32,299 nt of DNA. It comes from Gemmatimonadota bacterium (GTDB taxonomy: Bacteria; Gemmatimonadota; Gemmatimonadetes; Gemmatimonadales; JACORV01). Both the position numbers and the translations under genes were made by a program. The DNA lies in the NCBI GenBank assembly GCA_003157095.1, contig PMIK01000197.1, forward strand, positions 10,048 through 42,346, read 5' to 3'. Position 1 is the first letter of the stretch. The number at the start of each line of letters is the position of its first letter. Positions 13,895 through 30,480 of this stretch are shown here, in pieces. A model generated the notes under the pieces. It did not search any database. It was given only the letters and a program-made list of their open reading frames with translations, and was not told where the DNA came from.

Positions 13895-14223
13895 AAGGCC
13901 CCTACGATTTCTCCGCGCAAACGGTCGAACTTCGCGTCGTACGCGACCGCCCGAGATCGAACCGCCACGTCGGCAGGCTCAGGCAATACCGGCAGTACCG
14001 ACCGGCGGCAAATCTCCCGGAGCCGCCGGCGCAGCCGGTTGCGCTCAGGTGCGGTATGCCCGTGTCGCGCCACGATCACCGCCAGGCGTGAATGCTCAAG
14101 AGGGGAAGGCCGAATGAACAGATCGAGATGATCCGTTCGGCGGCGCTTCCCCTCGGTCATCAGCGCGCGGAGTTCCGCCGCGCGCCCAATCCGGAACGAC
14201 TTCGGCAGTCGCTCTGCCGTCAA
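13864..14223 (-). CDS. rnpA: Ribonuclease P protein component
   Basis: RnpA is the protein subunit that joins the RNase P RNA to process tRNA 5' ends. The 119 residues show the family's pattern: [17 protein letters not shown] at the start, a central beta-strand ([21 protein letters not shown]) with the RNA-binding RNR motif in [12 protein letters not shown], and a final [11 protein letters not shown] strand. The start is TTG 14223, which gives the usual short basic N-terminus and overlaps the rpmH stop as TTGA. A GGGGCGG lies just before it. Its RNA partner rnpB is only about 6 kb away on the same strand. Confidence 0.94.
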
Positions 14224-14381
14224 CCGCCCCGGTGCTTGGACGGTATCCTGACAGTCAGGAGCTTACGCCCCTTCTTGCGCCGGCTCGACAGCACGGCCCG
14301 GCCCCAGCGCGTCTTCATGCGGTGGCGGAAGCCGTGCTTGTTCAGGCGTTTACGGTTGTGCGGATGATACGTTGGTCCCAC
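14220..14381 (-). CDS. rpmH: 50S ribosomal protein L34
   Basis: The 53-residue basic protein is unmistakably ribosomal protein L34: [20 protein letters not shown] followed by [17 protein letters not shown]. It has a short C-terminal extension (RIPSKHRGG) beyond the usual 44-46 residues. The start is GTG 14381, preceded by a strong GGAGG Shine-Dalgarno with an 8-nt spacer. It is the first gene of the leftward rpmH-rnpA-yidD-yidC unit and is transcribed divergently from dnaA. Its stop overlaps the rnpA start by 4 nt. Confidence 0.96.
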
Positions 14382-14438: not shown

Positions 14439-14467
14439 TTGACTTTTCAACATTCGAGGCATACGTT
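14439..14467 (+). promoter_or_regulatory. dnaA promoter candidate
   Basis: TTGACT (14439-14444) matches the -35 consensus at five of six positions. TACGTT (14462-14467) follows after a 17-bp spacer. Transcription would start near 14474, leaving about 40 nt before the dnaA ATG. The -35 box overlaps two short inverted repeats, GTCAA-GG-TTGAC (14432-14443) and GTTGA-CTTT-TCAAC (14438-14451). Confidence 0.5.
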
Positions 14468-14513
14468 CGGTCGCCCTTGAAGCACCTACCCGCCTGACCC
14501 CGACCTTGCGTTG

Positions 14514-15911
14514 ATGGAGCTGTCCGTAAAGGAAACCTGGAACCGCCTCCTCGACCAGGCTCGTGGCCGCTTGCCGGAACCCACGATTCGATCCTGGCTG
14601 GAGCCGGTTGAGCCGATCGGCCTCGAGAACGGCACCTTGGTTCTCGCGGCGCCCGACGAGTTTGCCGCGGACTGGAACAAGTCCAACTACGCCGCGTTGC
14701 TGTCCGACCTCTCGACGCAGGTCGTCGGCCGGCGCCTGGAGATGTCGTTCCGGGTGATGGAAGAGCGCTCGCGGCGCCCACAGATGGACTTCTTCGTCGC
14801 GTCGCCGGCCTCCGCGGCCGGTGCCACGCCCGTAAAGGCGCCCGCCTGGTCGATGCCGCTGAACGAGCGGTACGCCTTCGGGACGTTCGTGATCGGCAAG
14901 TCCAACGAGCTCGCGGCCGCCGCGGCGCACGCCGTCGCGGAGGCTCCCGGCAAGGCGTACAACCCCCTCTTCATCTACGGCGCCACGGGCCTGGGCAAGA
15001 CGCATCTGATGCAGGCCATCGCCCACGCCGTGCTCGAGCGCTCGCCGCAGACCAGGGCCGTGTATATGAGTGGCGAGCAGTTCACCAACGAGGTGATCGA
15101 GCACATCCACGGGCAGAAGATGCCGGAGTTCCGGCGCCGCTACCGGAACGACCTGGATCTGCTCCTGCTGGACGACGTGCACTTCCTGGAACGGAAGGAA
15201 TCCACCCAGGAGGAGTTCTTCCACACCTTCAACGCGCTGTACGAGGCCGGCAAGCAGATCGTCCTGACGAGCGACCGCTCGCCCAAGGAGTTGCCGGGCC
15301 TCGAGGTCCGGCTCGTGTCCCGGTTCGACTGGGGCATGGTCGCGGACATCGGCCAGCCCGACCTCGAGCACCGCACGGCCATCCTGCGCAAGAAGGCAGA
15401 GCAGGACCACCTCGAGCTGACGATCCCGGATGACGTGCTCCAATTCATCGCCGAGCACGTCCGCAGCTCGGTGCGCGAGCTCGAGGGCTGCATTATCAAG
15501 CTGCTGCTCTTCGCCTCCCTGAAGCATAGGGAGATCACCATCGAGCTGGCCCGTGACGCTCTGTCGGACAAGATCAGGCCGGCGGAGGAAGCCGGCGCCG
15601 ACGCGGTGGGCCGGCGCGGCGGCCCTTCCATCGATCGCGTACAGGAAGTCGTCGCCCGGCGGTGGGGTGTTACGCCCGAGGGCCTGCGCTCGAAGGCGCG
15701 CACCAAGCGCCTGACCGTGCCGCGCCAGGTCGCCATGTACCTGGCCCGCGACATGCTCGGCATGCAATTGGTGGAGATCGGACAGGCCTTCGGCGGACGG
15801 GACCACTCGACAGTGATTCACAGTCTCGACAAGGTGTCCAGACAACTGGCCCGCGATCACAGCTTCCGCGATCGAGTGACTCAGGCGCGGACCGAGTTGT
15901 CCGCAGTTTAG
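14514..15911 (+). CDS. dnaA: Chromosomal replication initiator protein DnaA
   Basis: DnaA binds origin boxes, oligomerises with ATP and melts the origin. All four domains are present in 465 residues: domain I at about 1-85 (ETWNRLLDQARGRLPEPTIR), a short domain II linker, then the AAA+ domain with Walker A GATGLGKT at 156-163 and Walker B around D220-D221. The arginine-finger region follows (GLEVRLVSRFDWG). The DNA-binding domain IV has the DnaA signature GGRDHSTVIHS near residues 425-436. I chose ATG 14514; TTG 14511 is directly before it. No clear Shine-Dalgarno precedes the start. It is divergent from rpmH, the classic arrangement. Confidence 0.98.
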   Translation: MELSVKETWNRLLDQARGRLPEPTIRSWLEPVEPIGLENGTLVLAAPDEFAADWNKSNYAALLSDLSTQVVGRRLEMSFRVMEERSRRPQMDFFVASPASAAGATPVKAPAWSMPLNERYAFGTFVIGKSNELAAAAAHAVAEAPGKAYNPLFIYGATGLGKTHLMQAIAHAVLERSPQTRAVYMSGEQFTNEVIEHIHGQKMPEFRRRYRNDLDLLLLDDVHFLERKESTQEEFFHTFNALYEAGKQIVLTSDRSPKELPGLEVRLVSRFDWGMVADIGQPDLEHRTAILRKKAEQDHLELTIPDDVLQFIAEHVRSSVRELEGCIIKLLLFASLKHREITIELARDALSDKIRPAEEAGADAVGRRGGPSIDRVQEVVARRWGVTPEGLRSKARTKRLTVPRQVAMYLARDMLGMQLVEIGQAFGGRDHSTVIHSLDKVSRQLARDHSFRDRVTQARTELSAV

Positions 15912-16130
15912 ACGTTGGTAAGTCGCCGGAAATGTTGGGTCGGTGTTGGCTGATGTGGATGGCGTGGACGCATTTCAACGGACCAGTAAGGCTTCCACAT
16001 AACGGGGCGCGACGGCACCGCGCCAAGCCACTGGTACCACGTGCTCTAGCGCCGGAGCAAACAGTTCCACATGCTCTACGGTTACTACTAGTCTTTTCTT
16101 ATATGGTTTGGTAGTAGGCTGTACGACTCG
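15912..16130. other. oriC: Candidate replication origin (dnaA-dnaN gap)
   Basis: This non-coding gap holds several DnaA-box-like sequences. On the left they read in reverse orientation: CGTTGGTAA (15913), TGTTGGGTC (15933), TGTTGGCTG (15944), TGTGGATGG (15954, the best, with an intact TGTGGAT) and CGTGGACGC (15963), spaced about 20, 11, 10 and 9 bp. On the right they read forward: GCTTCCACA (15991), GGTACCACG (16033) and AGTTCCACA (16063), spaced 42 and 30 bp. After the last comes CTACTA (16085-16090), like the complement of DnaA-trio triplets, and an AT-rich stretch to 16107. TAGTAG (16112-16117) closes an inverted repeat. This order resembles the B. subtilis-type unwinding module, but most boxes are degenerate and origin function is an inference. 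Confidence 0.55.
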
Positions 16131-16150
16131 CATCCAATGAGGATTGGATG
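16131..16150 (+). promoter_or_regulatory. Hairpin over dnaN ribosome binding site and start
   Basis: CATCCAAT (16131-16138) and ATTGGATG (16143-16150) form a perfect 8-bp inverted repeat. The 4-nt loop GAGG is the only Shine-Dalgarno of dnaN, and the dnaN ATG (16148-16150) is the end of the right arm. In RNA the start codon would be paired and the ribosome site exposed in a tetraloop. The same symmetry in DNA could be a protein-binding site. Confidence 0.6.
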
Positions 16151-17260
16151 AAGTTCACGATCACGCGGGAGAAGCTTCAGGAAGGCCTCCTAGCGGTCGT
16201 CTCGAGCATTCCGACGAAGACGACGCTACCGGTCCTCTCCAACATCCTGATCGAGGCCACCAAGGAGGGCATCCGCCTTTCCGGTACCGACCTCGATATT
16301 GCGGTTTCCACGACGGTGCCGGCCGAGGTCGACGAAGAAGGTGCGTTGACACTGCCGGCCAAGAAGCTCTCCGAGATCGCGCGCGAACTGCCCGGCTCAC
16401 CAGTGCGGGTCACCTCGGCGGGTGAACAGCGGGCGCAGCTGGAGTGCGGAAAGAGCAAGTTCCGCCTGCTGGGGCTTCCGCGTGACGAGTTTCCCTCTTT
16501 TCCCGTGGTGCGGTTCGACGGTTCGTGGAAGGCTCCGGCGAAGGACCTGCACAAGTTGATCGGGCACGTCTCGTTCGCGGTATCGACTGAAGAGAGCCGG
16601 CCGATCCTCAACGGCGTCCTGTGGGAGCTGCGCAAGGACCGGATGCGGATGGTGGCGACCAACGGGCACCGTCTTGCCCGCATGGAGGTGCCACTTTCGG
16701 GCACCGGGACATCGCAGGCCGACCTCATTGTCCCGCCCAAAGCGCTCGAACAGATCCGCCGGCTGTTCGCGGAGGACGTCGAAGTGGAGATCGGCAAGAG
16801 CGAAAACCACCTGGGTTTCCACAGCGGCGGCACGCAGGTCTTCACGCGGCTGATCGAGGGCCCGTACCCGAACTACGAGCAGGTGATCCCTCGCGAGAAT
16901 GATAAGTTCGCGACGGTGGACAAGGTGGCGATGGCGGCCGCGTTGCGGCGGATGAGCATCGTCGCCAGCGACCAGACACACCGCATCCGGCTCTCGTTTG
17001 GCGGCGGCATGCTGAAGTTCAGCGTGCAGACGCCGGACCTCGGCGAAGCCCAGGACGAGATGGCGGTGACCTACGAGGGCGACGCGCTGGAAATCGGTTT
17101 CAACGCGGCGTATCTGCTTGAACTGCTCAAGTACATGCCGACCGACGAGGTGCGTTTCACGCTGAAGGCGCCGGAGCGCGCCGCGACGGCCGAGCCGGTG
17201 GGCTGGGACGACCCCGCGTCCTACACGTGCCTGGTCATGCCCCTGAGGTTGATCGACTAG
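16148..17260 (+). CDS. dnaN: DNA polymerase III beta subunit (sliding clamp)
   Basis: The beta clamp encircles DNA and tethers polymerase III and many repair proteins. The 370-residue protein shows the three repeated clamp folds. It starts MKFTITREKLQEGLLAVVSS and contains PVLSNILIEA, GTDLDIAV, and RPILNGVLWEL with TNGHRLARME in the middle domain. FNAAYLLELLKYM and the terminal YTCLVMPLRLID come last; MPLRL is the conserved C-terminal motif next to the partner-binding pocket. The start is fixed by a GAGG five bases upstream, which lies in a hairpin loop. recF and gyrB, which often follow, are absent: the next gene runs the other way. Confidence 0.98.
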   Translation: MKFTITREKLQEGLLAVVSSIPTKTTLPVLSNILIEATKEGIRLSGTDLDIAVSTTVPAEVDEEGALTLPAKKLSEIARELPGSPVRVTSAGEQRAQLECGKSKFRLLGLPRDEFPSFPVVRFDGSWKAPAKDLHKLIGHVSFAVSTEESRPILNGVLWELRKDRMRMVATNGHRLARMEVPLSGTGTSQADLIVPPKALEQIRRLFAEDVEVEIGKSENHLGFHSGGTQVFTRLIEGPYPNYEQVIPRENDKFATVDKVAMAAALRRMSIVASDQTHRIRLSFGGGMLKFSVQTPDLGEAQDEMAVTYEGDALEIGFNAAYLLELLKYMPTDEVRFTLKAPERAATAEPVGWDDPASYTCLVMPLRLID

Positions 17261-28496: not shown

Positions 28497-28563
28497 AGCG
28501 GCGGCGCCTTCTCCCTCGCCGAGCCTTGGCGATTCGTCACGGGGCCCGATCAGGAGTGTGCAG

Positions 28564-30480
28564 ATGAGATTCCCTCGCTATGCGTTGGCGGTCGTCACGC
28601 TGGTGGCCTGCACGGGCCGGCAACGGTCGGATGTGGAAGGCACCGCTGTGGACGAGGCGGTGGTCAGTGCCGCGCGGCCGGGTGTCGCGGCGTACCCCGT
28701 CGACCAGTTCGTCCACATCCGGGCGCACTCCGCGATCGGCTTCTCGCCCAGCCGGAGTTGGGTGGCGTATCGGTCGGACGTCACCGGCCGCAGCCAGATC
28801 TGGGAGGTTCCGACGAGTGGCGGCTGGCCGGTGCAGTTGACCTTCGCAGACGCGCCCGTCAGCGGCGCCGCATGGGCCAGGGATGGGGCCACGATGGCGT
28901 TCGAGCGAGACTCCGGCGGCGATGAGCGGTACCATCTCTTCTCCATGCCGAGTGCCGGCGGCGCGCCGGCGAGACTCACCGCAGCGCCCGAGGTTCGTGA
29001 ACAACTCGTCGGGTTCTCGGACGACCAGCGCTTCCTGGCCTACACCTCCGACTCAGGACAGGCAGGCCACTTCGAGTTGTGGATTCGCGACCTCGCTGCT
29101 GGCCGGGCCAGCCGCGTCACATCCGACTCGGTCAGCACGGTGGGGGGCGTCTGGTCCCACGACAGCCGGTTTCTCGCGCTCGCACGGACGAACGATCTGG
29201 CCAACGTCGACGCAGTCCTGTTCGACGTGTCCACCGGCCGTACGCGGCTTCTCACGCCGCACACCGGGTCGAAGTCCTACACTCCGGTCGCCTTCTCCCC
29301 TGACGACCGAGAACTGCTGCTGATCTCCGACGCGCGAGACGGCATCGGCCGGCTTGCGATCGTCACTCTGGGGGCCGACTCCCTGCGCTGGCTCGGCACG
29401 GGAAGCTGGCCCGTCGAAGCCGCCGGCTGGTCGGTGCGCGGAAGCATCGCGTATTCCGAGAACGCCGATGGCCGGATCACCACGTACCTGATGCGGCGGG
29501 ATGGTTCCAGTCGCCGGCGCATTGGCCCACGGCAGGGAGCTACGGCGTTCGAGGAATTCTCCAGTGACGGGCAGCTGGTGCTGTTCTCGCACTCCGACGC
29601 GACCCGGCCAAGCGACTTGTGGGTCCAGGACGTGGGGCGCGACTCGTCGTGGCAGTTGACGTACGCACTGGCCGGAGGCGTGGACCCCTCGAACCTGGCG
29701 CCGGCCGCATTGGTGCACTACCCCACGTTCGATGGCCGGAAGATATCCGCATTCGTGAACGTGCCATTCAACCTGCAGAAGGATGGATCGAACCCCGCGA
29801 TCGTTCTGGTGCACGGAGGGCCGTCGGGACAGTGGACCGACGCCTTCTCGCGCGATGTCGCCTACTATGCCAACCACGGGTACGTGGTGATTCGCCCCAA
29901 CGTCCGTGGGTCCACGGGCTACGGGAAGGCGTTCGAGGATCTCAACAACCTCGACTGGGGCGGTGGGGACTTGAAGGACCTCGTGGCGGCCGCCGACTAC
30001 CTGGTGGCGACGGGCTACGTGGCGCGGAGCAAGATCGCGGTGCTGGGCGGAAGCTACGGGGGTTACCTGACGCTGGCGGCCTTGGCGTTCACGCCCGAGC
30101 GCTGGGCGGCCGGGGTGGACCTGTATGGCATCAGCTCCATCGTGACGTTGGCGCAGACCACGGAGCCGCGGCTGTTGCCGTATCTCATCCGGGAAATGGG
30201 CAGCCTCGCGACCAACCAGGCGCTCATGCGGGAGCGGTCACCGCTGTTCCGAGCTCAGGCGATCCGCGCGCCGCTTCTCATCCTGCAGGGTGACAACGAT
30301 CCTCGCGTTCCGCTGGCGGAGAGCCGGCAAATCGCCGACGCCGTACGACGTCGTGGCGGCATCGCTGATCTGATCGTCTATCCGGGCGAGGGCCACGGGT
30401 TTCACAAACTGGAGGACCGACTCGACGGCATGCGCCGGGCGGTCGAGTTTCTCGACCGCTACGTCAAGGGCCGGGGTTAG
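28564..30480 (+). CDS. S9-family serine peptidase lipoprotein
   Basis: This 638-residue protein is a prolyl-oligopeptidase-family peptidase: an N-terminal beta-propeller with repeated WD/TolB-like blades (for example SPSRSWVAYRSD and SPDDRELLLISD), then an alpha/beta-hydrolase domain. The catalytic triad is visible: S497 in GGSYGGY, D579 in QGDNDPRVP and H611 in GEGHGF. The N-terminus is a lipoprotein signal ending LVAC, so it is anchored to the envelope, and acts on peptides in the periplasm or at the surface. ATG 28564 follows AGGAG at a spacing of about 8 nt. Its last 17 bp overlap the end of the convergent transporter gene. Confidence 0.92.
   Translation: MRFPRYALAVVTLVACTGRQRSDVEGTAVDEAVVSAARPGVAAYPVDQFVHIRAHSAIGFSPSRSWVAYRSDVTGRSQIWEVPTSGGWPVQLTFADAPVSGAAWARDGATMAFERDSGGDERYHLFSMPSAGGAPARLTAAPEVREQLVGFSDDQRFLAYTSDSGQAGHFELWIRDLAAGRASRVTSDSVSTVGGVWSHDSRFLALARTNDLANVDAVLFDVSTGRTRLLTPHTGSKSYTPVAFSPDDRELLLISDARDGIGRLAIVTLGADSLRWLGTGSWPVEAAGWSVRGSIAYSENADGRITTYLMRRDGSSRRRIGPRQGATAFEEFSSDGQLVLFSHSDATRPSDLWVQDVGRDSSWQLTYALAGGVDPSNLAPAALVHYPTFDGRKISAFVNVPFNLQKDGSNPAIVLVHGGPSGQWTDAFSRDVAYYANHGYVVIRPNVRGSTGYGKAFEDLNNLDWGGGDLKDLVAAADYLVATGYVARSKIAVLGGSYGGYLTLAALAFTPERWAAGVDLYGISSIVTLAQTTEPRLLPYLIREMGSLATNQALMRERSPLFRAQAIRAPLLILQGDNDPRVPLAESRQIADAVRRRGGIADLIVYPGEGHGFHKLEDRLDGMRRAVEFLDRYVKGRG

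Follow-up and report, generated by a model that had tools for sequence, protein, structure and literature searches.

A helically phased DnaA-box array and a putative Bacillus-type unwinding module in the probable oriC of a Gemmatimonadota bacterium

Described origins and the dnaA-dnaN locus

In Bacillus subtilis, the upstream DnaA boxes of the origin work whichever way they point and in phase with the helix, probably via a loop; reversal of the downstream pair kills the origin (PMC6669920). The rules established for the basal unwinding system (BUS) are a DnaA box with at most two mismatches to TTATCCACA or to a species-specific motif, a spacer of 0 to 16 bp, and at least three consecutive NAN trios on the bound strand, which read NTN as written (PMC8287927). 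Opposed box clusters are found in the origins of Escherichia coli and Vibrio cholerae (PMC10316083), and in E. coli these arrays consist of weak boxes on which two DnaA oligomers sit (PMC10316083, PMC4285127). For Thermotoga maritima, the best gap between boxes in direct repeat is 2 bp (PMC10316083). The literature searched yielded no oriC description for the phylum Gemmatimonadota.

The DNA analysed here, called the window, is a stretch of 32,299 nucleotides within a 51-kb contig of a 2.6-Mb draft genome (316 contigs, around 81% complete). It carries the initiator gene dnaA at 14511-15911 (forward; TIGR00362, E=4.6e-150, above cut-off; DHST signature in domain IV) and the sliding clamp gene dnaN at 16148-17260 (forward; TIGR00663, E=2.2e-95, above cut-off), separated by a gap of 236 bp (15912-16147). 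The genes rpmH (14220-14381), rnpA and yidC lie upstream of dnaA on the opposite strand, and this gene setting, rpmH-rnpA-yidC/dnaA-dnaN, speaks for an origin. From the features of its sequence, the dnaA-dnaN gap is very probably the chromosomal oriC of this bacterium. The original prediction had come to the same reading, which is now supported by a box cluster beyond that of shuffled sequences, by conserved box positions and by the trio-AT module.

Gemmatimonadetes metagenome genomes were among the nearest named relatives of the DnaA protein, with 66-67% identity, which points to a source within Gemmatimonadota. Two other entries are likely mislabelled or contaminated bins: the DnaA of L073, a genome labelled Nitrospiraceae, shares 61% identity with that of the window, and L126, labelled Nanoarchaeota, carries a bacterial dnaA. 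We also observed a box, TTTTCAACA, at 14444-14452, 60-70 bp upstream of the dnaA start, which scored 11.3 bits with the matrix of the clade (see below); autoregulation of dnaA or an upstream part of the origin are possible roles for it.

A clade-specific box motif and a phased reverse array

The dnaA-dnaN gaps were taken from 68 relatives of the same order, which gave 69 gaps with the window. They belong to three families: f1, the family of the window (6 genomes including the window), f3 (42 genomes) and the Gemmatimonadaceae-like f2 (21 genomes). The gap measured mostly 190-255 bp among the 68 relatives. Among the 6-mers enriched in the f1 and f3 gaps were CTACTA (120 observed versus 5.3 expected), CCCACA (75 versus 8.5), TCCACA (60 versus 5.9) and CCAACA (59 versus 5.8). 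The predicted core of the clade's DnaA box is YCMACA, or TGTKGR on the reverse strand, and this specific motif explains why consensus searches overlook the origin. Within the gap, only the site at 15954 lies within two mismatches of the E. coli consensus TTATCCACA, as anticipated by the earlier claim of mostly degenerate boxes, and therefore the array would not stand out by that consensus alone. The same search gave 29 matches in the 32 kb for 20 expected, with a single one in the array, and was dropped as a test. There was no support for tracing the loose motif to an altered recognition helix of DnaA: all three families have GGRDHSTVIHS or a near-identical form.

A DnaA-box matrix was trained by fixed-density EM on the 42 f3 gaps only, leaving out the family of the window. 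Its seven best matches in the window gap were, in rank order, 15954 (reverse), 15991 and 16063 (both forward), 15933, 15944, 15913 and 15963 (all reverse). These are seven of the eight sites originally proposed. The letters of all eight are present, but the site at 16033 did not hold.

The five reverse boxes of the window start at +1, +21, +32, +42 and +51 after the dnaA stop. Box 1 (CGTTGGTAA, 15913-15921, 7.2 bits) was found at +1 or +3 in the six f1 genomes; box 2 (TGTTGGGTC, 15933-15941, 7.9 bits) at +21 to +25 and box 3 (TGTTGGCTG, 15944-15952, 7.4 bits) at +32 to +34 were also present in all six, the latter with a score of at least 5. Box 4 (TGTGGATGG, 15954-15962, 10.8 bits), the strongest of the gap, recurred at +42 or +43 in 3/6 genomes, and box 5 (CGTGGACGC, 15963-15971, 6.1 bits), the weakest of the array, at +51 to +55 in 4/6. 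The positions in the five relatives were about +1, +22, +32, +43 and +53; taken individually, they were +1, +22, (+33), +43 in one member, +1, +22, +32, +53 in another, and +3, +24, +34, then +3, +25, +34, +42, +55, and +1, +22, +32, +52 in the others. Furthermore, the cores of the boxes at +1, +22 and +32 showed 70% identity among f1 members, against 40% elsewhere in the first 60 bp. The recurrence of the reverse sites in the five f1 relatives bears out the expectation that the box positions are kept.

The forward box GCTTCCACA at 15991-15999 (10.7 bits) has counterparts at +66 to +91 in most f1 and f3 relatives, and the trio-proximal box AGTTCCACA at 16063-16071 (9.4 bits) is followed by a 4-nt spacer to the trios in 6/6 f1 genomes. 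A weak candidate, ATTTCAACG, lies at 15972-15980 on the forward strand (5.4 bits, E=1.6 per gap); forward boxes of the relatives are located at about +67 to +71. In the f1 family, a second box precedes the last one by 8 bp. Its equivalent in the window, GAGCAAACA at 16055-16063 (forward, 2.7 bits), is the degenerate first member of this tandem pair, and the aligned relatives carry CCAACA or CCCACA at the same position, 8 bp before the last box. The claimed forward site GGTACCACG at 16033-16041 scored 1.1 bits (p=0.018 per position), was not conserved (absent in the congener L003), and was rejected as a box; it partly duplicates the 16063 box together with its flank. A direct repeat of 15 nt, 13 of them identical (16034-16048 and 16064-16078), copies the trio-proximal box and the first CTA; around 2% of shuffles give a repeat as good. 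The list of sites is corrected by dropping 16033 and adding the degenerate partner box at 16055.

The strength of the array was evaluated against chance. Seven sites scored at least 6 in the 236 bp, against 1.33 ± 1.07 (maximum 5) in 2,000 dinucleotide shuffles, and five same-strand sites within 55 bp were seen in 0/2,000 of them. The gap thus holds a box cluster beyond chance, as expected for a DnaA-dependent oriC. Such a reverse array might arise by chance when a G-rich stretch is searched with a very loose motif, and two features could be taken in this sense: four of the five reverse sites score just 6-8 bits, and TTATCCACA at two mismatches finds a single one. Against the shuffle counts, a matrix trained on a family other than that of the window, and the repetition of both box positions and phase across genera, this explanation is hardly credible. 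A scan of the 32-kb window showed that the dnaA-dnaN gap is the densest region, tied or exceeded only by windows overlapping it. The second-densest group of matches to the clade matrix (5 matches in 240 bp, 28561-28820) lies within a peptidase-like gene and is probably due to chance.

The reverse boxes of the window gave by themselves a mean cosine of 0.72 at 10.5 bp (P = 0.0095). The analysis took one genome from each of 26 genera in f1 and f3; the genera are related and hence not fully independent trials. The mean cosine at 10.5 bp was 0.55 with the f3 matrix, against 0.00 ± 0.09 for random placement, and 0.38 against 0.00 ± 0.08 when repeated with an f2-derived matrix. No enrichment was found among the reverse boxes of these genera at periods of 8, 9, 12 and 13 bp, and the distances between reverse boxes peaked at 9-11, 20-21 and 31 bp. 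The helical spacing first proposed for the whole gap thus holds for its reverse half; in the forward half, phasing rests on three sites including the doubtful 16033.

Strand use was markedly divided, with 64 reverse versus 4 forward boxes at positions 0-55, and 75 forward versus 6 reverse boxes at positions 56-170. Two families show this switch strongly and the third does not have it, the f2 gaps (L045, L046, L049, L052, L053, L056-L071) having boxes mostly forward throughout. Therefore, the reverse array is dispensable for an origin in this order and was gained or lost within it; its role can be tested by comparing the families. The window has two opposed same-direction arrays at regular spacing, the forward half consisting of two well-supported boxes only. 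A correction also applies to the view of an unusual layout: opposed directions as such are not exceptional, being present also in E. coli and V. cholerae (PMC10316083) and in the Bacillus and Clostridium gaps examined, where reverse and then forward boxes precede the trios. What is specific to the lineage is the dense, phased row of degenerate YGTKGR boxes, an elaboration and not a new kind of system.

The unwinding module and an inverted trio

Downstream of the last forward box (16063-16071), 4 nt separate it from the trio run CTA-CGG-TTA-CTA-CTA (16076-16090, forward), whose second unit, CGG, is broken. It is followed by an AT-rich patch (16091-16110), presumably the first DNA to be unwound, with 70% AT amid 62-65% GC; the relatives show the same. 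The CTACTA at 16085-16090 and the adjoining patch had already been noticed, and both belong to a conserved module: nearly all relatives have the box, the spacer, a CTACTACTACTACTA-like run at this position and the AT patch, and so do the Bacillus and Clostridium loci examined. With regard to the BUS rules, the conserved run TTA-CTA-CTA-GTC-TTT from 16082 provides the consecutive trios, and the spacer measures 4 nt if counted to the CTA at 16076 and 10 nt if counted to the unbroken run, which starts at 16082. The AGTTCCACA box has three mismatches to the E. coli consensus, yet it is the third-best match of the clade's own matrix. The downstream box-spacer-trio-AT module, which is conserved across the order, is predicted to be a B. 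subtilis-type BUS.

Beyond the AT patch, the window carries an inverted trio-like TAGTAG at 16112-16117 (reverse). The motif AGYAG was found at +5 to +40 after the trios in 29/42 f3 gaps (9.8 expected from shuffles), 10/21 f2 gaps (3.8) and 2/6 f1 gaps (0.7), and in f3 it lies mostly 17-22 nt past the trio run, an offset that is nearly fixed. The inverted trio does not depend on how the first trios read: AGCAGTAG is present even where the CTA run is perfect. Because the inverted copy fails to track changes in the trios, a hairpin between the two was considered unlikely. The TAGTAG may be a DnaA contact on the second strand, a dnaN promoter element or a relic. To its right, the window lacks a reverse box, and therefore a mirror-image unwinding module would be incomplete. 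A bolder reading is that the origin captures both strands, with phased reverse and forward DnaA filaments bracketing the locus and the trios CTACTA (16085-16090) and TAGTAG (16112-16117) facing each other across the AT patch. We regard it as unlikely; if true, DnaA would have a landing site on each strand, each directing one helicase.

Origin function and comparison with known systems

The GC skew was sampled in stretches of three relatives rather than in the 316-contig genome of the window. In the complete genome G059, the skew, mostly negative up to 3.68-3.69 Mb, turns positive there, dnaN being at 3.687 Mb. In G014, an f3 member that shares the layout of the window's family, 400 kb were sampled; the cumulative skew was lowest at about 990 kb in this stretch, and dnaN is located at 1,017 kb, around 27 kb away across an almost flat stretch. 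G012 gave no clean turn. The signal from the relatives is weak and agrees with an oriC at dnaA-dnaN.

Several steps can be proposed for this origin. DnaA bound to the forward pair 16055/16063 would seed an ATP-DnaA oligomer extending onto the single-stranded trios at 16076-16090. The oligomer would then stretch that strand and open the AT patch, a step shown in B. subtilis, which we infer here. The five reverse boxes may hold a second DnaA filament on one helix face; its counterpart would be the right oriC half in E. coli or the upstream boxes of incC in B. subtilis. This filament could loop or stack onto the forward complex and set the amount of DnaA needed for firing. By analogy, the many weak boxes would favour a cooperative, ATP-dependent filling.

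Two other readings of the boxes were weighed against this scheme. The gap doubles as the 5′ region of dnaN, and DnaA boxes regulate the dnaA-dnaN operon in other bacteria (PMC13220808), so that the boxes could form a DnaA-controlled regulatory region of dnaN, with replication beginning elsewhere. Promoter control, however, does not call for trios and an AT patch arranged exactly as in the BUS. The skew turns near the locus in two relatives, no equally dense box cluster exists elsewhere in the window, and we hold this reading to be very improbable. A much stronger contender, with a chance somewhat short of even, accepts the oriC and takes the reverse boxes as a loose upstream reservoir of DnaA or a looping anchor, similar to incC of B. 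subtilis and with no continuous filament; being a variant of the preferred explanation, its probability overlaps with that of the latter. The distal boxes of B. subtilis work in either direction and at many distances, in helical phase (PMC6669920), many relatives retain only two or three reverse boxes, and gaps of 20-21 bp are nearly as frequent as those of 10 bp. On the other hand, four adjacent boxes of the window are spaced by 9-11 bp, near the optimum of T. maritima ATP-DnaA on direct repeats 2 bp apart (PMC10316083), which speaks for the second filament.

Taken as an origin, the locus resembles the B. subtilis BUS (incC/oriC) in its tandem forward boxes about 8 bp apart, the 4-nt spacer, the trio run (CTA as written) and the AT-rich patch (PMC6669920, PMC8287927), with dnaN downstream in both; the upstream boxes of B. 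subtilis likewise act in helical phase (PMC6669920). It differs by its degenerate boxes (three mismatches in the trio-proximal one, a very weak first member of the pair) and its broken second trio unit. Its upstream part is a row of five reverse boxes at 9-20-bp spacing, whereas B. subtilis has few, scattered and strong boxes. With E. coli oriC it shares two opposed clusters, the right one of E. coli having five boxes, and regular rows in which most boxes are weak (PMC10316083, PMC4285127); in contrast, the window has a trio-type unwinding element instead of 13-mers, and a dnaA-dnaN neighbourhood. The origin of T. maritima also has TAG/CTA triplets in its unwinding element and boxes in both directions (PMC10316083), but only one of its five boxes is inverted, while five are reversed in a row in the window. 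One gap of 236 bp would thus join an E. coli-like phased reverse array to a B. subtilis-like unwinding module.
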